DNA from: Antedon mediterranea
Taxonomy: Eukaryota > Echinodermata > Crinoidea > Comatulida > Antedonidae
Reading direction: 5' to 3'
Length of the DNA stretch: 64,000 bases
Assembly (NCBI RefSeq): GCF_964355755.1
Contig: NC_092672.1
Coordinates: forward strand, 8,556,001-8,620,000
Under the pieces are notes generated by a model. It ran no database searches. It worked only from the letters and a program-made list of their open reading frames with translations, and was not told where the DNA came from. Each line of letters opens with the position of its first letter. Positions within the stretch are counted from its first letter, which is position 1. Of the stretch, positions 891 through 61,800 are shown one piece after another. Made by a program: the position numbers and the translations under genes.

Positions 891-3800
891 GTACAAAGTA
901 TTTCGCATCACCCCAAATAGCGACGATGACATGAAAGCGCTAAAGAAACTGAAATCTGTTGTTGAAGATAAGGTATAGTAAACAGTTTTATTTTGGTTAT
1001 CACCATCTTAAAGTGAAATCTTATTCCTGGTTTTACACCGTTTGCGTGTTGGAATACATTTATACATATTTTTTTTGTATAGATTAACATTGTCTTTTTT
1101 TAATCATCATACATTTTTACTTGCGTTTACATGCATACTTATTTTACTTATGAGAAGCGAAATATTTGTTTTATATTTTAACATAGGTAGATTTCTGGCG
1201 AGACATCAGAGCAGTAGGCTCACCTGTAGATATAATGGTATCTCCACAAATGGAAAAGCTTCTTGCAAACATTGCCAAAGAGTACAAATTGGATGTTGAT
1301 GTTGCGATTGAAGACATTCAACCTCTCTTCGACGACCAGATGAAACACAGCAGAGAGATGTCCGCCAAAGGGATCATTGGTGGTGGTAGCTTTGATTATA
1401 CTGAGTATCACACTCTAGACGAGGTAAATCCCGAAGATTCAGAGTATTAGAAGCCAACAAATTACTAATATGTTTCATTTTATGATAAAAAATGCTCGTA
1501 GAATGTCTTTTGAGTCTTTGGCAGTAAAATGCATTGTTTCCAATTCGAAGATTCTTAAATATTTTAACTGTAACGTTGTTGTTCCAATATTGGTCAGCAC
1601 TATCAATATTTCCAATAAGTTAACTAATTTAAATTTCTATATAATTCAAGGTGTTTCCTTGCTTGATTGGTTCTGGGGTTTTAAATTTTACAGATTATAG
1701 TATATGAATAAAATATCACAATATCTTATTATAAGTAATACTGTATTGTTATCGAATACATTAGATAAACACGTGGATTGAAGATATTGTATCAACGTAT
1801 CCAGCCCTTGTTAAAAAAGTACCAGTTGGAAGTTCGTATGAAGGACGTAATATTTACGCATTAAAGGTAAGCTAAAACATATCTTATTAAAAATGTATTC
1901 AATGACAACGTATACTCTATATACGTTTTGTTAATTCTCATTAAAGATAGAGTAGGGCCTACATGAACTAAAAAGACACGTGATAAATATCGAACCGGAG
2001 ATGATAATGCATCCTGCGCTTTGGAAGCATTTCGAAGCAGTTTTTGTGGTTTCAAAGAAAAGCCTTTAGTACACCATTGCGCAAAATTATTTTAAAATAG
2101 GGAGAGAAGGGTCTGGATACCATCTCCAGAAAATTGTTCCCGTTTTTGTCATCATTATTGTCATGTTTATAAGGAGATAACAACAACATTTTTCAATAAG
2201 CAGTGCTGAAAATATATTTCCCCCAACCATTAAAGGTTGACAACAAAATGTGTTGTTTATTTTTTCCATTTAGCTTGGTAGTTCAAAATTAGATAAACCA
2301 ATCGTATGGCTTGAGGGTGGTATCCATTCACGTGAATGGGTATCTCCAGCAACAATGATCTATATCACACATGAGGTAAGAATTAGTTTATAATCCAACT
2401 CTGTTTTCGCGTCAGCAGAAGAGAGCGATCACTATGGGCCTGCTTCTGCTGCAACTGCTCAAAATACGGTATAAAAATACGGTATTTTTATACCGTATTT
2501 TTTAGTACCCCGTACTTGTTTGCATAGCTATCCTATTGAAACGTGTGTAAAACAGCTGACAGCGACAGAAAATCAAAACACGATGTTGACCTCATGTCGC
2601 AGGTAAACAAAACAAGGTATTTTATCCACAAATACGGTATACAAAATACGGTTTACAAAATACGGTTGACAAAATACGGTTTTTTTAATGAGCGCCGTGT
2701 CCGCTGCCAAAAACCCGTATATATACGGTATTCAAAAAATACCGTATTAAATACGGTATTTATTTGGAAGCAGAAACAGGGCCTATATAATAGATTTGCA
2801 ATATTTATCTATTTAAAATAGATAAATACATCTAGTCATTTTCGTCCGTACTTTACGACAAAATTGTGTATACAATAATGTCATTTCCTCATCATCTTTA
2901 TGCTAGACTAACTAGGCCTATTTAATTTGTTTACGTTCAGCTTGTTTCAAAGTATGGCAAAGACACTGACATTACAACTTTGATGGATGGATTACACTTC
3001 TACATCATACCAGTTTTTAATGTTGATGGATACGAATACACTTGGACATCAGTAGGTCTATATTTATTACTTAGGCTTATACCGCAGTCAATAATACTGT
3101 AGGTTACATAAACATAGATATATTAACTTTATTCGTCAATTTTTTGAAAATTGTCTTCTTTGGCAAGATAGGATATGAAATACATTTAAAATACTTATAA
3201 AAAAGACATTACAAATATTGCAACAATTAAAATACCGAATTAAAAAGTTCTCTTAAATTGTGTTGCGTTTGGAACAAACGATAATGTAAAACGTGAATTG
3301 TTTGATTTACTAATTCTGCCATATTTACTAATTCTGCCATATTTGTTGCTAACAAATCCATTGTGTAATGAATGAAAGCGGTTTTCCATAGTTTCATTAC
3401 GGTAACTTTCTTTAGATTTTTGTTTCTCGTACACATCACTAACAGTATATCTCCTTAATTTTTAGTAGTAAACAATCACATTTTGTCAGTTTTCATCAAC
3501 TCTGAAATGTTTTTATTATTAAAGATCCTTACATATAATAGGCAAAGATACGGCGTATTTATAGTTAATCTAGAAACAATAAAGATGAGGAAATCTGTGA
3601 TCTATGAGTATGGGAAAAAGCTGGGCAGCCTCAACCCAGATTCGAACTAGGAACCTTCTACATGATATGCAGATGTCTTTTAACCACTAAAAAGATAATT
3701 AACACTAACATTAACTTTCAGGACCGCATGTGGCGCAAAACAAGATCTCCAAACAACCGATGCGTTGGTACTGATCCCAACCGCAACTGGGATTATCACT

Positions 3801-5214
3801 GGAGTGGTAAGTTATAAATTACGAGGGAAATTTGTATTTTTCTTACGAGTACTCATATATTTATTACATCTAAAAAATGGCACCTTCTTTTCGAATTGGT
3901 GGGAGTAAGGGGTCAGGACCCCGATGATACGCCTCTCTCCCTAACCCCCAGATAGGAGTGCCTTAACATCACCACCCAGATGAAAAAGCAACGAATACTA
4001 AGAATAATTTAATAAGTAATGACACGTAATAAGAAAACGTAATATAAATTTGGAGATTTTTGTGGTGTAAGTGAGAATTACAATGTTTTATATTCACATT
4101 TACACCCACAGAAAATGAAACAATACAGATTCAAATTCTGATTCAAATTTTCACAGATCCAGGAGCAAGTGCAAATCCATGTAGTGATCTATATTACGGT
4201 TCTAACGCATTTTCTGAGATCGAATTAAAGAGCGTCACCAATTACATGAACCCCTTGAAGGAGGACATCAGAGTCTTTATTGATTTTCACGCCTACTCTC
4301 AGATGTGGATGTCACCATGGTCGTACACGAAAGATCTACCAGATACTGAGGACTACAACGACCAGATCAATCTACAAGCTAAAGCCGTGGAAGCTCTGAC
4401 TGCAGTTTACGGTACCAAATACACGCAAGGAACGATTGCTAACACAATCTGTACGTAATCGTCCTAAAAGTTGGTTCCCATAGGACGCAAGGACATAAGA
4501 GCAACGCAATTGATTTTACCAATGAAATGCGATAGTTCGAATAATCAATCGCTTGTCATTGGTAAAATTGCTAATGTGCTTGCGTTACCCTACTGGGAAC
4601 TAGGCATTGTTGGGACGTAATACAAGGACGTAAACACAACACATGTAATTTTACCAATCACGGCGCGATAGATAATCCGTACTGTCGCTTGTCTATACTA
4701 ACTTTCGTTGTGCGTACGTTGTCCTTACGTTGCATCCAAATGGGAACCAAACCAGAAAAAAATCATTCAATTTATTCAATATAGGCCTACGGTATTCCGC
4801 GGCACAAAATAATGGATTTCCGGAAAAAAACAAGAACACATGCAATGAAGGTCAACATTAAAGAAAATTAAAGTTCAATAAAACTATTTCTAACATTTAA
4901 CCATCATTTACAACCGAACTGTTTTAATCTCCGTCAACAAAAAGTAAACTGTGGCAGAATAACTTATTGTTTGACTGATATGTCATTTGAAATTCATAAA
5001 TTACAAATAAATTGTCTTTATATTTTTTTCAGACGAAGCATCTGGGTCTAGCATCGACTGGGCTTACGGTACACTAGGCGTTAAATACTCATATGCCGTG
5101 GAGCTTCGTGATGAGGGAACATATGGCTTCACCCTACCCGCTAGGTTTATTGAACCAACAGCTATAGAAACGTTCGAAGCGGTAAAAGTGATTGCTAACA
5201 AAGTTAATTACTAA
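891..5214 (+). CDS. Zinc procarboxypeptidase (M14A, A-type), 5' exon missing
   Basis: Secreted metallo-exopeptidase zymogen that removes C-terminal residues. Eight exons with GT-AG borders: 891-972, 1187-1423, 1765-1866, 2274-2375, 2941-3051, 3722-3806, 4157-4450 and 5033-5214 (TAA), giving about 397 residues. The first two encode the activation propeptide (starting YKVFRITP). In the enzyme domain, zinc ligands His69 and Glu72 (bovine CPA numbering) lie in GGIHSREW and His196 in FIDFHAYS. Arg127 is in RMWRKTR, Asn144-Arg145 in DPNRNW, Tyr248 in TIYEASG and catalytic Glu270 in VELRDEG. Both cysteines of the conserved disulfide are present (RCVGTD, NPCSD). The residue aligned to position 255 is Ile, as in A-type enzymes preferring hydrophobic C-termini. 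The signal-peptide exon is not seen; the first base of 891 completes a split codon. All frames are open. It is a paralogue of the gene at 11436-18162. Confidence 0.95.
2436..2786. mobile_element. MITE with inverted ends and ATACGGTAT-rich interior
   Basis: The left end reads GGGCCTGCTTCTGCTGC and the right end, reverse-complemented, GGCCCTGTTTCTGCTTCC. The interior is packed with direct and inverted copies of AATACGGTAT. The inverted termini suggest a non-autonomous DNA transposon, possibly hAT-like, in an intron of the carboxypeptidase. No clean target duplication was found. The coding-looking frame across it is just this repeat. Confidence 0.6.
3618..3695 (-). mobile_element. tRNA-derived SINE fragment
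   Basis: On the minus strand a run of CTGCATATCATGTAGAAGG is followed by TAGTTCGAATCTGGG, a B-box-like promoter element preceded by an anticodon-arm-like stretch. It has no complete cloverleaf, so it is a SINE remnant rather than a tRNA gene. A related fragment lies at 9730-9790. Confidence 0.45.
4471..4750. mobile_element. Two adjacent MITEs, GGTTCCCA..GGACGCAA family
   Basis: One copy spans about 4471-4603: it starts TTGGTTCCCATAGGACGCAA and ends with the inverted CTACTGGGAACTAGGC. A second, more decayed copy spans about 4612-4750 and ends ATGGGAACCAAAC. Both are imperfect palindromes with a CCAAT-like TTTTACCAATxA word near each arm. They lie 20 bp after the donor of the 4157-4450 exon. 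Relatives are at 11286-11421 and 11962-12098. Confidence 0.7.
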
Positions 5215-5633: not shown

Positions 5634-5639
5634 TTTATT
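5634..5639 (-). terminator. AATAAA overlapping the stop codon of the tocopherol-cyclase-like gene
   Basis: On the minus strand the last codons read CTC AAA TAA AAT, so the stop lies inside AATAAA. If used, the 3' untranslated region would be only about 15-30 bases. Confidence 0.35.
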
Positions 5640-8060
5640 TGAGTATTCTGTGATATATATAAGATGAATTTATGTTTCGTTTTTGCTTACATGGATTTTC
5701 GTGACAAAGGTAACGCCCACCAAATTCAAGAGCAGAGATTTGAAATGTCTGCTGATCAATAACATCTTGTTCGCTAAATTTTTGAAAAATTGATTTGCGT
5801 TTGTAGATTTTCAAAATTGTAGTAGCTTGATAACTTTCAACAAGAACTGGTTTGAACCCTTGCGCCGTCGGCCCTCTAAGACAGGTACCAAGAGTAGCTA
5901 CCGGGGCGGTAACATTGTACACAACACGATAATAAATCGAATTGATGGTAAACGATGCAATTCCTTTACAGCCATCGATCGAATTAGTAAGAAGCGAGTT
6001 GTCCACTCGGAGGTCTAGTTCAATGCTTTTGTTGTAGTTTCTATAACCAAATAAATGAGCAGGAATATCTACGTAACCAACAAACTGAATTACTCCGAAT
6101 GAACCAGAAACAGCAGCACCTGGTTTGACGGCCTGAGTCCAGACCCATGCGGGTGGGAAACCTTCACCCCAATTCTTCTCCTGATGCATAAACGCAGAAC
6201 CGTGGATTGTCTCACCACTTGATGTATTCGTCCACGTGTATTGACCGAACGTATACGGACTGTACACAAACCAATGCAGAGGCAGAAACGGTAGTTTACC
6301 AAGCCAGCCTTCAGGACCTGAAGTTAAAAATGAAAGACATACCTACGTGTGAAGAAAAAATGTATAAACTACAAATATTTATTATGTTTTGATAGTTCCT
6401 GTATAACTAATGATGATGAAACTGCGTACAGAAATGAGGTCACGCATGTTATTAAATGGTACTCTGACAATCATCTTATTTTAAATGCTAAGAAAACTAA
6501 AGAAATGATTTTTGACTTTTGGAGAAACAACAAAGATATAGAACAATTCATTGTTAACAATGAATGCGTATCTAGAACAACAGAGTACAAATACTTGGGT
6601 GTAACTATAGACGATCAATTTAGTTGGAACAAGCATACCCAAAGTGTCTATTCTAAAGCTAGTTAACGCCAATTTTTTCTTAGGAAGCTGAAGAAATTTA
6701 ATGTTTGACAAGATACGCTGTTCCTATTTTACCAAAGTGTAATCAAATCTGTTATGTTCTGTTGTATTGCCTGGTATTTAAAATTAACTAAGAAAAACAA
6801 ATATTTAAAATAACTAAAGCAGCATATAAAATAATTGGCGTAGAATTTGAAAGTATAGGTAATCTTTGTGATAAAACGGCTCTTAATAAATTAGAAGGGA
6901 TAATTAAAGATGTGACTCATCCACTAAATAGTATTGTAATTTTTAATATATCTGGTAAAATTCGGCAATGCAAAGTTAAATCCAACCGTTTTAGAGACTC
7001 TTATTTCCCATATGCTTGTCTATATAATGTACATTTTCAAGAGATAATTAGTTAAGGTGTTACGTTTTTATATATTGTGTTTTAAATTGTATTGTATCTC
7101 TGTTTGTAAGCTCAGGAAAATAAATTTCCACTAAGTAATATTATGTGACAATAAATTGAATCTTGAAATATAATTAATTAATTGTCATTTGTTGCTCGCT
7201 GTTTGAAAAATACGTCGCCTTGTAGCCTATCCCTGCTGTATTACTATTTAGAACAATCAATTTGGAACTGTTACGCCTCACATTCAGCTGCGATTATGTC
7301 GTATATGATGCCTATATAAATCAGTTATGCCATTGTCACTTTATTAGTCACAGTGGTTTGAATGCTGTTTTTTTTCACAAACAAGCTCCAATTATTTACA
7401 ATTTACAACAATTACATTTTTTCATTAGAAATTTTTGCGTTTATAATGCTACACATTGCTGTTTCTGTACGATCTTCTATCATCTATGCGATGGTAACAC
7501 AAAATGAGGTAAAAAGAAGTCAATGCTACACTACTTTTTATAAATGTACTGAAAACACTAACAAAAATATTTAAGAGATCTTTACCTGTGCCATCACTTT
7601 TCCAAAATGTCGGTTTTCCAAATTTCCCCTCAAGACGAATTTCTTCTATTGTAAAATCAAAATTCGTTTGATTTTCTGAAACATTGAAATACCCATTCTG
7701 TGTAGCTTTCCATATAAAGTTTGCTGGCGGTGGACTGTAAAACGCAGGGTTCCTATCGACCTCTTTCGTTCCATTCAACTTCACCGATATATCTTTCAAA
7801 TCGGGATATGCTTCCTTTGCCGAGATAGATCCAGTACAGTTGCTGCTTTTTAGAATTCCGAGATAGGTTAACGGATATTCTGTGTCTGTGTAGTTAAGTA
7901 CACGCCCGAAAAGAACGCCATAAGACTGCTGCATATGTTCATCAACAAGACGAGCGTACCAGCCTTCGACAAATGGACCTTCTTCTGGAAAAACATGCGG
8001 ATCATTTTGGTTTCCCTGAGCCAAGCACAGAATAACACTCACTATAACAATATACAACAT
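5635..8060 (-). CDS. Secreted tocopherol-cyclase-like protein, two exons
   Basis: Exon 1 runs 8060-7586 and exon 2 6317-5635, joined by a GTAAAG donor and a TTCAG acceptor in phase 1; the product is 385 residues. The ATG at 8060 is chosen because it opens a signal peptide (MLYIVIVSVILCLAQG). The mature N-terminus has FVEGWYARLVD, the middle HGSAFMHQEKNWGEGFP followed by WVWTQA, and the C-terminus TTILKIYKR then ALEFGGRYLC. This order (EGWY, EKNWG, W.W.Q, then a C-terminal strand ending EhGG) matches the two-lobed lipocalin-like fold of plant and cyanobacterial tocopherol cyclases, and 385 residues is close to their length. About nine N-glycosylation sequons support secretion, unlike the plastid plant enzymes. 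Catalytic activity on tocopherol precursors is not implied. It converges on carboxypeptidase 1, 421 bp away. Confidence 0.8.
6340..7168 (+). mobile_element. 5'-truncated LINE: reverse-transcriptase C-terminal part and 3' tail
   Basis: The frame 6349-6666 encodes a reverse-transcriptase thumb-like segment, with NHLILNAKKTKEMIFDF then EYKYLGVTIDDQFSW. The downstream sequence continues the family pattern only in broken frames with several stops. The copy ends with a 3' tail ending ATTATGTGACAATAAATTGA at about 7158. The same tail occurs at 59330-59425. It sits in the intron of the tocopherol-cyclase-like gene, antisense to it, and is a dead copy. Confidence 0.8.
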
Positions 8061-11435: not shown

Positions 11436-14400
11436 TTAAGAAGCAAACTCTTTAACAATCTTTTCTCCAAGTTTCTTGATTGCTGCAAAGTTTTCTTCTC
11501 CGGAAGGGATAATTTCGCTTTCTGGCATGAGAAAGCCGTAAGTGCCAGTATCTCCCAGTTCAATAACGTATGAATATTTGGCCCTAAGCGTTTCATAACC
11601 CCAGTCTGCACTGCATCCTGAAGCGGCATCTGTAAAAGGAAATAATTGGATTTTTGAAGAAATTGTAAATATAGGTTTTATATACTATTTTAATCCTGTG
11701 ATTAAATTAACCAAAATGTCTTTTCTCTTTATAATGTCATAGCCATGCACTCAAAAACCAATCATCGGTCACCTGTATCGATTAATATTAATTATTCATA
11801 AATTTAATACCCAAAAGTTTCAAATAAAACGGCAAAGTGTGTTCACAGCAAACACACTTATGCAAAGTCCTAAAAGGGTAACGACGAAAGTTAATAATTA
11901 TGGCTACATTTTAGGCAACGTAAATGGAATAACTTCCGTCTTACAGTCTGAAGCTGAATAAAGCTTGGTTCTCACTAGGACGCAACGCAAGCGTCTTGAC
12001 CAATGACCAGCGAAAGTTCGAATAATCCATCAATTGTGATTGGTCAACTCACTTGCGTTACGTCTTTGTGTTGCGTCCCTAGTGGGAACCAAGCATTATT
12101 TCGCACGCGTGCACGACACATACAAGAATTTTCTTCTCTCCTAAGGTTCCCGTTGGGTCGGGTGCTGCCACGAAATGGCGCTCATTCGTCGACAGGATGG
12201 ACCAGAGTGCATACTACCCTTTCGAAAGATTGGTTCTTCTTTATAGTGCACAAGAGTCAGATATGTATACTGTATAACCTCGAGTTAGGTTCTTTAAAGT
12301 GCACACGAGTCAAGTATGTACACTGCGACCTCCAACACCAGAAGAAGTTACTTACATAGTTTTCTTGCAGAAGGCCCATAATCATAGTCGGTTCCATGGA
12401 CGGCCTTCAGAGCATCTGTACAAGCCTTAGCCATAGCATCCTATTTATCAAGAATACAATCAAACCTGCTTAGTCTAAACATATTTTTATATAGTTCATT
12501 CCATAAGTTAAACAAACTGTTTTTGGAAAAATGTATATAGCCTCATTTTTTCTTTTAAATATGTATTATCCCCAACAAACATGACAAATTAAGTTTTTTT
12601 TTTTAATTTCAACAAAATGTTACGAGGATGGTCCATCGAGCCGAAGCTGATCATTAGGGACCCTCACAAAAATACAACATGACGAGACAAAAACATGTAA
12701 CAATAAAATCAAATTAAAATAATTAGTATTTGTAAAGATAAACAAAATAAAATAAAGCACAAGCAAATTAGTAAAAAATTAAATGAATTAAATTAAATTG
12801 GCCATCTCAGAAGGAAAAGGGAACTAAACAAGAAGACGGTTGTTGAGCAAATTGTGAAAGAAGAGTAAGATGAAGCAAGTTGGATATCTAAAGAAAGATT
12901 AATAAAATCTTTTTTTTGTGTAGTTTTAATAAAGTCATCTACAACAAAAATACACACAAATATTGGTTTCACTGTTAAATTTACCGTCTGACAGACGATT
13001 TGACTATTTTTTCTCTATCTAAAGTTACCAACTATTTATTATCTGGCATTAAAAAAACATATTTAACAAAAAGATTTTTTTTCAGGGGGACAATATATCT
13101 TTAATCTATTAACTATATTGACTTATAAAAAACATCGAAACATGCCAGCCCGGTCTAAATATTATAGGCTACATAAGTGCGTAGTCAGATCTATAAACAA
13201 TTGATATTATCGGATACTAATTACATGTATATTTTGATGTATCAGGTTAGACCAATACTCGATCACGGCAACCAAAAGTAAACATTTCTAATTTTACAAG
13301 ATGATAAGAGTAGGGTGGAATATTGCCTGCTACCCTAGGCCTACGTGACATCGCAAACAACATGTTAGTTATTCCAGGGAAGAGAATTTAACTCTTCTCT
13401 GGTTATGCCTAAATTAAACTCACGTGATCTTTAGTGTGTGATGGCAATGTAGCAGTCTTTGAGTAAGACCAAGGAGCTAGCCAGAGTTGAGAGTAGGCGT
13501 GAAAGTCGATGAAAACATGGAAGTCCTGTGTTTTGTTTTTTTTTATTAGGAAACTAGTGCTATCAGCAAGCTCTGGTTCGGAATGGGGTTCGGAACCACG
13601 GTAAACGTCAGAACAAGGATTTGTACTAGTACCAGCCCCTGAAAGTAGAAAACAGTCGTCAAAAATCAGTATTCACTATTATTCAATTAAAGTATTTTAT
13701 TTCCTCAAGCATTCTGGATCGAAAATTGTCTTGAGGCTGAGGTAAAGAATTAGAATAAACAAATTTCAAATTCAACTTATGGAAAAAATCTATTAAATTT
13801 ATTAAATTAAGTGAAATTTGTATTTTTGGTGAAATACGGTCGCTTGCCAGCATAATTATCAATACGGTGGGTTTTTTTGTAAACGACAAAATATAGGTTG
13901 ATTTTTAGTTGACTCTACAGCTGACTATGTCGGTCGGTCGGTCGGTCGGTCAGTAAACACTAACTTGAGCACGTGACTGCAGCCATCTATATGGCCTTGT
14001 TTGAGGAAAAATGGTTAACGAATTCGTTATCAAAGCAATGTTTTGATTTTACAAAAAAACTTTTTCATAAAATCTTTTACAATATTTATATGAAAGGTTG
14101 AAATCTGTTATTGGTGGCAGAAGGATAGATTCAGATTTTTTCCACAAAATATAGAATGAAATGATTGCATCCTATGAATGAAATAACTAATTTTTTTCAG
14201 AAGTGAATAACAGTATTAAAACTGCAAAATGGCCTACTTAAAGTCTGATTAATCTTCATTTTTTAGTGTTTTTGGGGGACAATACATCTATAAAATAAAA
14301 TATAAATATGACTAATAATAAACTCACCTCCCCATTTGTATTCATAGTTTCGGTTTGGGTCGATTCCTGTACATATATTGCCGGATTCATGGCGTCTGGT

Positions 14401-17400
14401 CTTTCTCCACATACGATCCTAAACACAAATTGGCCTAATATTTAAACTTTATTATTCTATTTTTACAGCTCACTATGTCGGTCGGTCGGTTGGTTGGTCG
14501 GTAAACACTAACTTGAGCACGCGACTGCAGCCATGTATATATTATATCTATTCATAATCACTTCCGATGGTATAATCTCTCTATGGTGAGCTTAATGCCT
14601 TTGGCCTAATTTAGCAAGTAAAAACCAATAATATTGAAATATTAAGAGAAATTGTACTATATCATTATCATTAATGTCTCAGTTCAGTCATTTGTTTTAT
14701 ATTTCTTCCCGGTTTTGCGTACATGATGTTTCTCTTTCAATTCTGTTCATATAAATGAATACACCCAATATATGCAATGATCAATTAATTAATACATATC
14801 TTTGATTTGTTTAAACGTCCGACGATTAGAAGGACCTAAGGCCTTATGACGTCATATGAAGGCGCAGCTAATCACATGCGCTGAGTTTGGTTGGCCAATT
14901 GTTATGGAACCAATTCGGTCGATTCTAAGTTAGGTCCAGACATGCATATTTGAAGTTTGGGGTGTACAATTGTTGAAAAAAAACAAAAAAAAATTGAAAT
15001 CGAATTCATAATTTTACGCAGATGAACGATGACGTAATGCTTGATCGTCGAAAATTGAAAATAGGTTTAACTTACGTTTGTCCATGTGTAGACGTATCCG
15101 TCAACGTTTAATGATGGTACAATATACCAGTCAAATTTATCTAACATGTCGGTCACTCCAGTATCACTGCCGTATGTCTCCAACATCTACAAAATTAAAT
15201 GTAAAATATTCATAATTATAAAACGTACAGGTAAGCCTGATCTTTGTTTATTCAAGGTAATCTAATAAACCCTTCGATCTTTCTTTTCTTTTTCTTTTTT
15301 TGCATCTCCATTGAGATCCAGTCACTGATATCCACATCATTATCATTTTTCAGTAATACGCCTTTGGATTTATATATTTAACAGTATATTTCCATTAAAT
15401 GTTTCATAAAATAAAACATTTTTTTGGAAAACGTCCATTAACGAAGACCAAAATAGTACTTCGGCATTCATTTTTATTTCTTTGTAATTATTAAATTCAA
15501 ACACATACGGTACCTGGTTAGTGAAATACATGATCGTAGCGGGAGACATCCATTCACGAGCATGGATACCGCCTTGGAAGTAAACAGCCGGTTTACCACT
15601 TGTTTTTTTTCCGATCTAAATATATATTTATAAAGAAAATCACCATTTACAATAATGTGAACAGACAAGTAAAATTATATGTAAAAGGCGCCAAGAAATT
15701 CCAAGATGTGACGGGCTGTTTACTGATACTTTAGACCCTTCTGTACATAGGCTAAGGGTTGTGCCGCATTACTTGCATTTTTAAGTTACTGAAGTCATTG
15801 GCCTTGTACACTATTCAACAATATTATGTTGATCAGAGACCCTCCTTCCTTCAATTATCTAGAATAACATTGTATTGAGAGGTCCACAAGTATAAAGAAG
15901 AAACCAAATGAACGAAATAATTAATGATATTCATTGAAATGTCTCTTTCATTATGATTTACGTAATAATTACGTAATCTTCAATAGCATGATTGAAAAGT
16001 ATTTTGTTTTCTTCTTTTTCTATTAATATGAATTTCAGTTTGTTCTGATGTATGTATTAAAAGAATTGAATTGTTATCATTAAAGCATTACTACCTTAAG
16101 TCCGTTGATCTCACGTCCTTCACTAGATGTAGCAATTTGGAAAGACTCGGCAATGTTGGAGTGTGCGGCTGCAATGTCTGCAACCCACTCTTTTATCTGT
16201 GAAATATAAATATGACATGAATGTTAGTATTTTGTTTGAGTGCCTTTCATTATCAACCTAATTAATATTAATTATTGTCATGGTAATATTACCGTTGTAT
16301 GTTCTTCATAACCTTAATTAATCATAACTCGTCTTCATATCTAATCATCACTTTCACCACCACAACCACCACCAACAACAACAACATACCTTTCTCGCCA
16401 TTATTAACGTCCATCAACATCAGAGCTATTCAATCTTCACACGTATATTTACCATGGTGTTTAATAAGTGCTTACTTTTTAGGTCTAGGCCAATACTTAT
16501 TTGTAAATCCAGTATGTAGGTAACTTTTTAGAAATTTTTTTATTTTTCTCTATTAAAAAGAAATTTAATGGACAATATGGAGATATAAAATAAGAATCAC
16601 CATGGTTAAAATAAATAAATATTGCAACTTACCTCTTCATAGGCATGATATTTGGAATAATCAAAACCGTTGTTTCCATCCAAAATGCCTTTTGCCGAGA
16701 ACTGATTATCAATTATGCCTTGGACATCCGGGATGTGAACTACGTAATCAAGTCCACGAGCGTTCAGCAACGTCTGCAGAAGATCATGATACTTTGGCGA
16801 AACCATGATGTCTATAGGTCGTTCAAGAACACGGGTCATTTGCCAGAAGTCAAACTATATTTAAAACAAAAAATAAAACCAAAATCATTACTAGTATGTA
16901 TAAATTACGAAAGCCTAATCCGGCCACATGAATAGAAATAATATATAGCTATGTTTTTGTCGGCATATGTATATAGACATTTCGAAATAGAAACACAAAA
17001 AAAAAACAACAAAAAACATAATGTCAAAATTTCTACATACAAATAAATACACAATAAAAAACATAATAAATGTCGAAATTTCTACATACATATGTTGACA
17101 TTTTGACATAAAACAAACGTATGTGTACAAGTTCAAACTATTTTTTGATCTTATAAACGGCAACGGATAACATTGCGCTACAATTGTCAATATTGGATTG
17201 ATGTATCAAGAAAGAAGAGTTAAACAACGTTCTTCATGTTTCAAAGATACATTCTCATAAACTCAGCCAAATGATTGCCTTAATGAATTTTGTCTGGTAT
17301 AGTATCAAAATATTGTGTTCCGTTATTATAAGTGCTGCGCCATATTTCTACTCTTTACAAAAAGCACATTCTTGTGGATAGAAGCTATTTGTAGGCCTAT

Positions 17401-43800: not shown

Positions 43801-46800
43801 GCACTTATTGAACATAAATATAATGAAACTAGATACAATGTGTAACATTATAAAACTATGAACCAAGTTAAAACAATTAGTTGTTAATATAACATTCAAC
43901 TTTTAATGATCAATTGTAAAGTTTGACTCCTTAGGTTATGGAAAAACTATTACATAATTGCTCAATATATCAACGTTGTATTTCTAATGGTCATTTGTAA
44001 AGTTAGACTCCTTAGGTTATGGAAAAACTATTACATAATTGCTCAATATATCAACGTTGTATTTCTAATGGTCATTTGTAAAGTTTGACTCCTTAGGTTA
44101 TGGAAAAACTATTACATAATTGCTCTATATATCAACGTGGTATTTCTAATGGTCATTTGTAAAGTTTGACTCCTTAGGTTATGGAAAAACTATTACATAA
44201 TTGCTCTATATATCAACGTGGTATTTCTAATGGTCATTTGTAAAGTTTGACTCCTTAGGTTATGGAAAAACTATTATTATTTGCTTTATATATCAATGTT
44301 GTATTTCTAATGGTCAATTTTTAAATAACTAAAGGAGTCAGACTTAATATGTAGTCTGACTCCTTTGGTTATAGGAAAAACTATTAAAATTAATTGCTAA
44401 ATATCAACGTATTTCAAATGACCAATTACAATTCTGACCCTTAATAAAAAATGGTCAATACTACGTTGATATACATGGGCTATATGTAGCATAGATAAAG
44501 TTTTTGTCTCTCTCTTGCTAACAGACTGACCATTCCTGATGGGTTGTGATAACATAAAAGCTTAAAATAAGGGTTGAAACGTCTGATAGTGCCGACACGG
44601 AGAGGACGCCTACAAATAAAGCATCACCGATGAAAGACTGAAATCAGGGAAGGTTACATTAATTATGCTAGGAACATGTTTTGATAATCCGTAAATCCAG
44701 AATGGGATAAATACGCCATTTATATAGATAATTAATACCTTTTTAAGCCAGACAGAAAACCCCATTTAAAATCTTTTAAGCATACAATTTAAAATGGTCT
44801 ACCTTATGATTTAAAAATAAAATGCTATGACTTAATTATTTAAGTTCACCGTACTTGGTTAAAATAGTCGGTGCTATGAAAAAGTGACGCCAACTGTTCC
44901 ATGAAAGATACAGATTTTTAAAATCCCTAAAGCTTTTTAAAATCTTCATTTAAGCTAATAATTCTATTTTAGAGGATATGGAATATTTATTTTAGTAGTT
45001 CCTAAATTCTTTGAAGACATTTAAAATTCAGATTTAAATCTATGTCTACTAATGAAGCTTAAAGCCCCCTTCCCTACGTTTTTTAGATCTAATTTAAGGT
45101 CACAAACTATATTTAATGTAAAAATAATACTATATGGTCCTATTGCGATAACATTTTTCGTCTTTAAACGGTTAAAAATGTGAAAAATAAGTCAATTCTA
45201 ATAATTATAGCGGCCCGCTATAAATCTCAAAATGCATTGCGCGCAGATTGATATTTTTGTTTTTCACCTGTAATTCGCCCACTTTTCGATCGATCGTGAG
45301 GCCAAAACAAATGGAAGACTCCTAACTTTTCAGCGAAAATACCGGGTTTTCCCCAATTTGTATCAACGGAGTCTGGCAAAAATAGAAAGACAATTAATGC
45401 AGCAACTATACAACGTCAGGCTAGGTATATAGCTAGCGTATGATGTTCGTACGTTACCGATGTTTACCAGCTAGGCATACAAAACTAAGCCTAGCTAGGC
45501 TAGGCCTAAGACCGTCCACGAGAGGTCGATCGCCGTGAGCTACTTAGGTAGTGCATTGTTTCTCACTTTTTATCATAATTTACCATAACTAGATGGCACG
45601 CTCGCTTCGCTCGCGTACCATCTAGGTCGTGCCCACAGATGGTTCTCGAATACACAGTATTTCCAGCGAGAAAAAAATGGAGATTTCAAACAGTGTACGT
45701 ACCGCAGGACTATAATACATATTGTCGTTTACAGAAACGAATAAATATACACAATGATTTATGTAGTCAACCAAAATTAGCACCCTGGGAATTACTTCCG
45801 AGAGAAAAACAAAATGAGTCAAATTTTTTTATTTGGACTCATTTAAACAAACCCAATTTGTGTTTTGTATGTAACATTAAGGGTTGAGGGATGGGGGAAG
45901 AAGATGGGTACAAAGAGGAAACATTTTAAAATATATTCTTATCCACTCAGTAACGAAATATTGTTTTTAATGTTTTATAGGCCTATAAATAATATACCAC
46001 TAAATACAGTAAAACATTTACGATTTAATACGGTACTTTGTTAAAACTCTCACTGTCATAGTCGATTGAAATAGTAAAGTACACCACTACGACGTTTATA
46101 TATTTTTAAATTATTAATTAATACAAACGTTGAGAAGCAACTGTCAGTAATAACATTTATTTATTTGTATATTATATGTTTATAATCTAACAGTAGGGCC
46201 TACCCACACTCACAGTAATAAAGTTTATTTGTATATATTTTTATATTACATCTAACAGTACCAACACTCACAGTAAGAAATTTGTGATTCAAATTGTGAT
46301 CAAAAGTGGTTAATACCTTAACAGTATTGTACAGCATTGCAATACTATTTATGTTTATTCTCCAAGGGGGCCCATAAATCTAAATCTATACCTCTATGGT
46401 TAAACCAAATAATTTGGAATGTTTATTTCTATATTATATGTTTATAATCTAACAGTAGGGCCTACCCACACTCACAGTAATAAAGTTTATTTGTATATAT
46501 TTTTATATTACATCTAACAGTACCAACACTCACAGTAAGAAATTTGCGATTCAAATTGCGATCAAAAGTGGTTAATACCTTAACAGTATTGTACAGCATT
46601 GCAATACTATTTATGTTTATTCTCCAAGGGGGCCCATAAATCTAAATCTATACCTGTATGGTTAAACCAAATAATTTGGAATGTTCCATTCATCACAAAT
46701 CAATACATTTGTAAAAACGTATATTAAATGTATCAAAATAGTATTTTTTAAAGAAAATCGGCCTGTCTTCAACATTATGATGCTGTACTCGAACTGTTCA

Positions 46801-58800: not shown

Positions 58801-61800
58801 AATCTTCATAACAATTATTAACATTAAAGTCTGTTAAACATCCTACCAAGAACATACTAAGTGAACTAGTTACAATGTTACATGCTAAAATATAATAGCA
58901 ATTAATTAAGTATTAATATTTCTTTCCTGTAAGTGGATATGACAAAAATGCAAGGGGTTAGTTCAGAGCCCCCTTTAATAATTGGTTCCAATTAAACTCC
59001 ATTATGATTAATTGAAATATAAATTAATTTTGACTGTTTATGACTTTAACAAATATGGTTTTGTGTTAACTATTCAGATATAAATATTTCTATGGTTTAC
59101 CAGAGGAATTAAATTAATTGGGAAAATGAAAAAATACATTCAAAACCCTCCGTTGGGAGACCCCTATTGAGGGGACATTCCTATCAAGGAGACACTTTCC
59201 CATGAAATGAACAACGGTCAATATAGTGTTTAATATTAAATATAGCCAACTCCTGTTCAGACACCCCTATATAGTAATTTTCCCATGAAACAATAAAACA
59301 ATAATAATTAATATATATACAATACAATATTGTGTTTAAATTGTATTGTATCTATGTTTCTAAGCTTAAGAAAACAAATTTCATTTATGTAATATTATGT
59401 GACAATAAATTGAATCTTGAATCTATACAATATGTTAACATTGCAGCCAAATCCTATTTAGGCCATCCCATCCTCCCCCATGGACACTTTGTTGGGTTAC
59501 TACTGTAATATCAGGACTAGTTTAAAGAAACAAAACATGGTTCAACAATTGTAAAGATAGTTCACTTAAAACAAGCTTTACTTCAGAAAAGAGAATATTT
59601 AACTCTTTTAATAATTATTTTTTTCCACAATTATCTGGAACGACACGATAACTCAATATTTGAATTTCCAACGAGACCAGACTAAAGAGAATTAAACATA
59701 AAGCTACTTTACTATTAACTTGACTTAACCTAGTTTCTAAAATAAGCACATCTTAAACGTACTGGTTTTACAGACACACAAGTATGTGGTTTTCTGTATT
59801 TTTCAGATACTAAACTGCCATGTAATCTAGAGACATTTAAAATATTTAAAAAATAACCATAAAGGAAACAGTTGAAATCGTTAACCAAAATAACTCATTT
59901 CATCATTTCTCTTAAAAAAAAAAAAATTAAACTGTGTATGCACCACACAGTGTATGTTAGTAAAAAGGTTCATCTGGATCACTGTTACTCCACAAAACAA
60001 ATTAAGAAGTCTTTTAGTTCACCCAAAAGACAAAATAAAAAATGATGACAAATCTGGTGTAATATACCAAGTAAATTGCAACAACTGCGAGAAAGCATAT
60101 ATAGGAGAAACAGCCAGAACCTTATCCACAAGGATAAAAGAACACAAAGCAGATGTCACTTCACATTGTACAGGGATCCTAACACGTTCAGCCAGAAATT
60201 CAGCTTCAGAAATTGTTCACAACTCAGCCATCACCGATTACATGACCACTCACACTCATTTACCAAATTGGAACGTAAAAATACTAGGCACAGAATCGTC
60301 ATGGAAAGACAGGAAAATAAAAGAATCAATAAATATAAGAAAACATGGTAACACTATGAACAGAGATGACGGCGGTTTGGAACTCCCAAAATTGTACAAC
60401 AACTTACTAAAGAGGAGGCCCCGACAATCCCATTTGGGAAAACCTGAACGATCTATAGATGGCACTATACCATATACGAGATCTAATGGTAACAAGTCCA
60501 AGTCACAGAGACTCACTCATGATTAAGCTGCGTCGTTGACCAGCAAAAGCTAGAGTAAAAAACGTAAGTTTACGAATTTTATTCGACTTTGGATCATCCA
60601 AAAGAAAATTTACTTAAAATACACAGTGTATGCATGGAAAGTGCACAAGTTAGAGCCAGTGGAGCAGTAGCCTTCAACAATGAAGTTTAATCCTAAAAGG
60701 AAGAAACTACTACTAAGAATAAAAGTTGTATCATAAAGAGTGAAAAAGAAAACAAAACAACCAATCAAAACTAGCAAATTCTGAGAACTAGGCAAATATT
60801 GACACTTTCTTTATATTTATCACAGAGTCATAAGAATAGGGGAAACCCCATGGCTGGTCAGCCTATGACACTAGACTAGAGGTCAGCATCTACTATATGA
60901 CATTACTGTAGGTATATAGTGAGGATGGAAGGTTACCAAATAGTTTCTGTTGAGCACATACAGACAATACTATACATATTAAAGTAAAAAAGTCCACTTT
61001 TGTTAAGTGTTCCCTAACTCTCTCCATGCTACACATGAGTGTAATGGGTCTTGAAGTTGAAAACACCATTCGTATACATTGTAATTTAGCAAACTTACAT
61101 CAAACTAAACACTTAGTACAATTTAACCAACCCTGTGTAGACCCCTACAATAAATATCAAAACTACCTATTAGCCCCAAATAAAAAATGACCATCAAATC
61201 TTGGCATGATCACAGCCAAATGACATTGAAGTGACAATTATCATAATAATATGCCAAATGAAATCACGAAAGACCTCCAACAGATATGATTTAAAAAAAC
61301 GGAATTTCTTACAAAATTCAAAAGTTGCCAGTTCATTGAATCCTGACATTGTCCGTACGGAACAGACTTCCTACCTATATGAAACACATCCGGAAAAACA
61401 TATGCTTATGTTGAGTATTTATCAAATTTAATTAACTTTTATTGGAATAAATGTTACTGACATTCAGTAAGTAATTAATGTTATTTTGCATCTAGGCGTG
61501 TTATGTTGCACAGGATACTATGACTTGCCCATCTTTGTTATGAACAGTTAATGATTTAATGTAGAAATAAATGACTTTGGCATCCAAGAATGTGTATTAA
61601 AAAAGAGATGGGCTGTTGGATTTGGCAGGTACAACATTTTAGCTTGGGCTCTTTCAGGCACACTGGGAATTTTTCCTGCCTTATTTAAAGTAATTTTTTT
61701 GTAATTTGTCAACTTTTTAACAAACAGGTGTCAGTTTTATCTCTTTATGTATTCAATTGAAATGAACAAATTCATGTCAGTATTATAGTATTAGTACACA

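Follow-up and report, generated by a model that had tools for sequence, protein, structure and literature searches.

The genome of the crinoid Antedon mediterranea harbors a genuine single-copy animal member of the tocopherol cyclase family, PF14249 (Tocopherol_cycl). We read its product as an exported, probably N-glycosylated protein outside the VTE1 clade of plant and cyanobacterial enzymes, which would act on a prenyl-type lipid, whether by cyclase, hydratase, or isomerase chemistry; for this reading we put the probability at roughly one half. True vitamin E synthesis by the animal protein is unlikely, and a new substrate may fairly be inferred.

Gene structure and family assignment

The gene lies on the minus strand of a window of 64,000 nucleotides (contig NC_092672.1, positions 8,556,001 to 8,620,000), where two exons joined across a GT–AG intron encode a protein of 385 residues. 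The features discussed here, in window coordinates, are the following.

7586..8060 (-): exon 1; residues 1–158 and the first base of codon 159, with the signal-peptide-like start and the EGWY half
8013..8060 (-): putative signal peptide MLYIVIVSVILCLAQG, codons 1–16; cleavage site placed by eye
7956..7973 (-): FVEGWY, residues 30–35; contains the family-invariant EGWY
6318..7585 (-): intron; 1268 bases, phase 1, GT–AG, GC 0.292
5635..6317 (-): exon 2; the rest of codon 159 to the stop (5637–5635), carrying most of the PF14249 match
6154..6180 (-): EKNWGEGFP, residues 205–213; family signature and proposed catalytic segment
6133..6147 (-): WVWTQ, residues 216–220
5710..5733 (-): ALEFGGRY, residues 354–361; near the end of the Pfam match
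6334..6663 (+): reverse-transcriptase remnant, antisense in the intron; RVT_1 E 3.5e-4, 20.8 bits, below the cut-off of 29.6
1187..5214 (+): neighboring M14 carboxypeptidase gene, in convergent orientation to the cyclase-like gene; exons partly mapped
11439..16854 (-): M14 procarboxypeptidase gene on the other side; exons partly mapped

An earlier, sequence-only reading had described a spliced frame of this length with about nine glycosylation sequons, along which FVEGWY, EKNWGEGFP, WVWTQ, and ALEFGGRY follow one another as ordered motifs. The coordinates, splice, and translation agree with that description, and the protein carries nine N-X-S/T sequons. The same reading took the gene to be intact, to lie in an animal, and to have an export-like N-terminus; this too is borne out, by a PF14249 gene on an animal chromosome and by the hydrophobic character of MLYIVIVSVILCLAQG, in which 11-residue Kyte–Doolittle means reach 3.4. 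Read by eye, this N-terminus looks like a signal peptide, with an n-region that has no basic residue; after residue 15, the highest mean hydrophobicity of any 19-residue window is 1.24. GC content by codon position is 0.487/0.394/0.350 in the coding exons, as against 0.292 in the intron.

The match to PF14249 is significant (E 3.1e-12, 46.7 bits, curated cut-off 26.6) and covers residues 129–359 only; because it spans the splice junction at residue 159, it also supports the intron call. The HMMER search proposed with the sequence-only reading might instead have turned up a better family, and no other Pfam family matches the whole protein up to E 1. Taken by itself, exon 1 (158 residues) matches no Pfam family up to E 10 and scores 3.9–18.8 bits against group profiles, so that its family membership draws on the EGWY motif together with these weak scores. 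The whole protein scores 20.6–58.2 bits against 12 group profiles, compared with 7.0 bits for the best shuffled copy (200 shuffles per profile, of which hmmsearch reported 89–140), and this match is not due to chance. In the 354-Mb genome, the PF14249 model gives one match, at this locus, and a protein search for a second copy returned only the gene's own two exons. NCBIfam gave no match up to E 1, and sequence searches of the PDB gave one match at E 1.5 in one case and three at E 0.47–2.5 in another, none of them with a related name. With the animal protein as tblastn query, no match was found in plasmids and phages; viral contigs gave 20 pattern hits with the animal protein and 38 with an alignment, none of which was confirmed.

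Chromosomal context

The gene sits between two M14 peptidase genes, the plus-strand one 0.4 kb away and the minus-strand one at about 3.4 kb. In the former, the frame at 4075–4455 matches Peptidase_M14 (E 5.4e-20), with the frames at 1187 and 5011 assigned by eye; the latter matches Peptidase_M14 twice (E 6.6e-12 and 3.2e-15) as well as the activation peptide, Propep_M14 (E 3.4e-13). The assembly comprises 354,431,138 bases in 18 contigs, and the gene's own contig measures 38.96 Mb. A homeodomain search of the genome gave 104 matches, among them twelve Hox-like homeodomains in an ordered series (contig C2:7827797-8206132), one of which (L071) is on the opposite strand; from their signatures we take these to represent Hox1 to Hox8, Hox9/10, and three genes of Hox11/13 type, and the set to be ambulacrarian (echinoderm or hemichordate) in character. 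M14 genes on both sides, the size of the contig, and a Hox-type cluster in the same genome place the gene on an animal chromosome and largely refute contamination. The flanking stretch found no match among plasmids.

Several further elements were observed. Degenerate reverse-transcriptase-like frames lie antisense in the intron across 6334–7055 (+), including a frame at 6792–7055. Elsewhere in the window, an open frame of 210 residues at 59894–60523 (+) has a GIY-YIG match of 24.4 bits (cut-off 22.6) and resembles the end of a retroelement, presumably of Penelope type. Two tandem arrays look young: 43904–44325, with 5.2 copies of an 81-base unit at 95% matches, and 46160–46685, with 2.0 copies of a 262-base unit at 98% matches. 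Elsewhere in the genome, four homeodomain matches fall inside one open frame of 3044 residues (C8:12532856-12535357, minus strand).

Bacterial and photosynthetic relatives

A pattern scan of species genomes returned 22 loci, 21 of them cyanobacterial and one titled Myxococcales; its patterns were drawn from the animal protein and from an Arabidopsis VTE1 sequence, and are tilted towards plant-like sequences. The record of that single locus supplied the label Myxococcota used here. A family search in this phylum had hits in 64 of the 377 genomes covered (above cut-off in 45), and some of the 64 supplied the loci compared below. Since other bacterial phyla with cyclase-like proteins (PMC4963081, in part) fall outside the sample, "nearest" means nearest among the sequences examined.

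With that scope, the relatives closest to the animal protein belong to a small group of Myxococcota proteins with lipoprotein-type export signals. In a set of 43 proteins, in which many of the added bacterial rows are in a wrong reading frame, blastp with the animal protein as query ranks L033 (E 8.6e-14) and L032 (E 3.5e-10) ahead of a cyanobacterium (5.5e-9), and phmmer agrees (L033 1.1e-11, L032 2.5e-10, next L031 5.7e-10). The best profile for the whole protein is likewise that of the exported-type four (L032, L033, L035, and L036), at 58.2 bits, followed by three other Myxococcota (48.8), the 22 photosynthetic rows (43.3), and seven Myxococcota in which no export signal was seen (36.0); five random four-row photosynthetic sets gave 26.6–47.7 bits, with one set reaching the upper value. 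Exon 2 alone follows a similar order for the leading group, with 52.3 bits for the exported four, 40.1 for the photosynthetic rows, 34.9 for the three others, and 20.1 for the seven without an export signal. Exon 1 does not favor the exported group, because it scores 4.8 bits there as against 17.7 with the seven and 16.4 with the three others (6.8 with the photosynthetic rows). Identity over aligned columns is 21.4–24.3% with the exported four, 18.4–21.7% with the 22 photosynthetic rows, and 14.1–19.9% with the other ten; at 21–24% versus 18–22%, full-length identities differ little between the exported and photosynthetic groups.

A strict lipobox pattern is passed by three of the four exported rows, and in the fourth, L035, the stretch ILIVVGC can be recognized by eye; none of the 21 cyanobacterial rows, the seven Myxococcota without an export signal, or the three other Myxococcota passes it. 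The four thus form a lipoprotein-like, exported group of tocopherol-cyclase-like proteins with HxEKNWG in place of YxEKNWG. A search for further members in the order and in the class of the L033 genome gave matches in five of 16 and five of 57 genomes, respectively, the same five loci in both cases. Around L031, L032, L033, and L035, the frames, compared by eye over their first 70 residues, revealed no shared gene neighbor. The exported four share with the animal protein the HxEKNWG motif, an export-type start, and the lack of a C-terminal W, and as a profile they score best with exon 2 as well as with the whole protein. They differ in having a bacterial lipobox where the animal protein has a plain signal-peptide-like start; the animal protein, in turn, has a much longer branch, nine sequons, and a first exon that scores better elsewhere.

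Three maximum-likelihood trees, of 40, 23, and 35 rows, were built without L045, L046, and L048; the 23- and 35-row trees also omit L023, L034, and the distant rows L044, L047, and L049, and the 23-row tree keeps nine of the 21 cyanobacteria. The animal protein groups with the exported bacterial rows with support of 95/90, 86/68, and 88/77, respectively, and the photosynthetic clade closes without it (98/95, 100/100, 100/100). An AU test does not reject a single clade of animal and photosynthetic sequences (p 0.068, 0.123, and 0.308). At 4.5–5.0, the animal end branch is very long; the tree program issued a warning about long-branch joins, and long-branch attraction is possible in this placement. 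On these alignments, the animal protein is outside the photosynthetic clade, and sisterhood to that clade is not rejected. Horizontal transfer, a question raised by the sequence-only reading, is disfavored as a recent event from a plant or cyanobacterium, both by an identity of 18–22% and by the closure of the clade in all three trees. The patchy presence of PF14249 in animals is as consistent with frequent loss of an old gene as with several transfers.

Conserved residues

Residues were compared across 37 rows, including the animal protein, with 22 photosynthetic rows defining 68 invariant columns. The animal protein keeps the family core: of 15 positions that at least 36 of the 37 rows conserve, it has 14, including E32–Y35, E205, K206, W208, G209, and E356; EGWY, W218, and E356 are identical in all 37. 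It keeps only 26 of the 68 photosynthetic-invariant positions, compared with 34–38 in the exported four, 25–29 in the seven bacteria without an export signal, and 34–40 in the other three, and with so few retained, catalysis could be lost. The motif YxEKNWG, proposed as catalytic (PMC4963081, in part), reads HQEKNWG in the animal protein; histidine is also found in all four exported rows, and tyrosine in the other 32. The region corresponding to FP-xWxW-QxNxF reads FPPAWVWTQAVKP, with the N and the F of the photosynthetic motif changed, and neither motif occurs in its full photosynthetic form.

Tocopherol cyclase of the VTE1/SXD1 type, from plants and cyanobacteria, has in common with the animal protein the PF14249 domain and the order EGWY – EKNWG.xFP – WxWxQ – ExGG. 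Motif order had earlier been taken to match the vitamin E cyclases; it is instead a mark of the family at large, and is seen also in bacterial rows that fall outside the photosynthetic clade (PMC4963081, in part). The animal protein departs from the VTE1/SXD1 type in its low identity (18–22%), in HxEKNWG, in the invariant positions kept, in its place outside the clade, in the lack of a C-terminal xPW, and in an export-like start as opposed to a plastid or cytosolic location.

Fold

A full-length model of the cyanobacterial member L016 (pLDDT 88.9, pTM 0.88) has as its best structural neighbors Fsa2 and CghA (Z 22, rmsd 3.5–3.6, 282–286 aligned), followed by Phm7 (Z 21.7), AttH NE1406 (20.4), kievitone hydratase (19.6), and 25-phosphosteroid lyase (17.3), after which scores drop to Z 6.7. 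These proteins have a common fold with the family and no sequence match to the animal protein. The exon 2 half of the animal protein was modeled with a pLDDT of 75; its top twelve rows come from this same group of neighbors, at Z 8.3–9.6 and rmsd 3.9–6.2, with the next at Z 8.0, scores little above the best Z of 7 to 8 that is typical of the tool where there is no clear match. Foldseek alone, with the same model, gave nothing at E 0.001 or below. The fold matches of the exon 2 half are modest. From these models, in which the cyanobacterial member shows the two-lobed fold at full length, we infer that the animal protein would adopt the lipocalin-like double barrel seen in the tocopherol cyclase/CrtC/AttH group.

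Among the neighbors of the L016 model, 14 chains exceed Z 16, and all of these except the putative AttH are enzymes; CghA, Fsa2, and Phm7 we take to be Diels–Alderases. The family fold hosts chromanol ring closure, prenyl hydration, and [4+2] cycloaddition on hydrophobic substrates. Kievitone hydratase, a secreted enzyme bearing N-glycans, catalyzes the hydration of a prenylated phenol, an isoflavonoid (PMC5805349 and PMC6013536, each in part).

Possible functions

An exported acid–base cyclase, hydratase, or isomerase is favored because the fold hosts such chemistry and because kievitone hydratase is itself secreted, N-glycosylated, and prenyl-hydrating. In outline, the protein would enter the secretory pathway, where it would be trimmed and N-glycosylated. 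The conserved E-K-N-W-G and EGWY segments may line or cap a hydrophobic cavity, in which the alkene of the substrate, a prenylated compound or a terpenoid, could be protonated by an acidic residue or deprotonated by a base; the outcome would be ring closure, hydration, or isomerization without a cofactor. The most likely arena for such a reaction would be the gut lumen, a body fluid, or a secretory compartment, and the substrate a dietary or endogenous lipid. An extracellular address in place of a plastid one had seemed to call for explanation, but relocation from a plastid is unnecessary, since the best-scoring bacterial relatives already carry lipoprotein-type export signals.

It is also conceivable, although unlikely, that this is a bona fide tocopherol (chromanol) cyclase, acquired by horizontal transfer from a cyanobacterium, an alga, or plastid-bearing food, fitted with a signal peptide, and making tocopherol-type antioxidants. 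Retention of the motif order and of the EKNWG core is consistent with this, as are the AU results and the cyanobacterial origin of 21 of the 22 pattern-scan loci, although the last reflects a scan biased to plant-like sequences; a review, moreover, credits corals, sponges, and tunicates with the capacity to make the chromanol ring (PMC9078042, in part). The photosynthetic clade nevertheless excludes the animal protein in every tree, most of the clade-invariant positions are gone, and the Y of YxEKNWG and the N and F of the next motif are altered. The pathway context may point the same way. A UbiA prenyltransferase search of the genome found three loci (four exon matches), whose best models are MenA-type, haem O synthase, and 4-hydroxybenzoate; all score below the prokaryote cut-offs, as expected because the sequences are animal or partial, and in our reading, with gene names given by interpretation, they would be UBIAD1-, COX10-, and COQ2-like. 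None of the three is a homogentisate prenyltransferase, in an exon-by-exon genome search that can miss weak matches, and the same search found no fourth UbiA locus able to supply a phytylated precursor, nor any enzyme acting earlier in the vitamin E pathway.

Alternatively, the same barrel might serve a non-catalytic role outside the cell, as a lipid carrier or sensor; to this we would give appreciable weight while doubting it. The export-like start, the sequons, and a lipocalin-like fold would suit such a role, as would fast divergence and the loss of many positions that are constant in photosynthetic members. Yet the charged core E205-K206-x-W208-G209, along with E32 and E356, has been kept despite that divergence, with no obvious need for it in a pure carrier, and the close structural neighbors of the L016 model are, AttH apart, enzymes. 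That the locus is a decaying gene or an assembly contaminant, as its single copy, long branch, and intronic reverse-transcriptase remnant might suggest, is barely credible given an intact frame of 385 residues, GT–AG sites, the codon-position GC of the exons, M14 genes on both sides, the size of the contig, and the Hox-type cluster. A more specific proposal is an extracellular animal cyclase, derived from the exported bacterial lineage and not from plastid enzymes, that would close the chromanol or chromenol ring of a prenylated hydroquinone. Its substrates could be ubiquinol- or menaquinol-type compounds (via COQ2 or UBIAD1) or dietary prenylphenols. We regard this as very unlikely; if true, animals would have their own lipid antioxidants or chromene defense compounds.

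Animal members and significance

The presence of a PF14249 gene in an animal is not new, since such genes are already on record in corals: Tocopherol_cycl is listed for all the scleractinian corals examined but for neither of the sea anemones (PMC6214176, in part), and K09834 has been called in Acropora digitifera (PMC3750612, in part). These coral genes (Acropora digitifera v1.04929 and other Scleractinia) are PF14249/K09834 genes in animals, likened to the present one by their annotation. In the parts covered of open-license papers, we found no paper on an animal tocopherol-cyclase gene beyond corals. Other mentions proved to concern different subjects: in a thrips paper, "tocopherol cyclase" is a GO term attached to a protein of the tocopherol transfer type (PMC8969747, in part), and those in PMC8067062 and PMC7772410 (each in part) are an Arabidopsis gene and an archaeal annotation. 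Cyclase-like members occur in heterotrophic bacteria, where their function is described as unknown (PMC4963081, in part); the words "animal" and "metazoa" are absent from that paper.

Vitamin E chemistry is usually seen as photosynthetic, and yet PF14249 genes are found in corals, in Antedon mediterranea, and in heterotrophic bacteria. Family membership combined with a signal peptide does not amount to a relocated plant enzyme. A putative secreted animal member offers a direct route to the role of the wider family, and bears on whether the chromanols and chromenols of marine invertebrates can be animal products.
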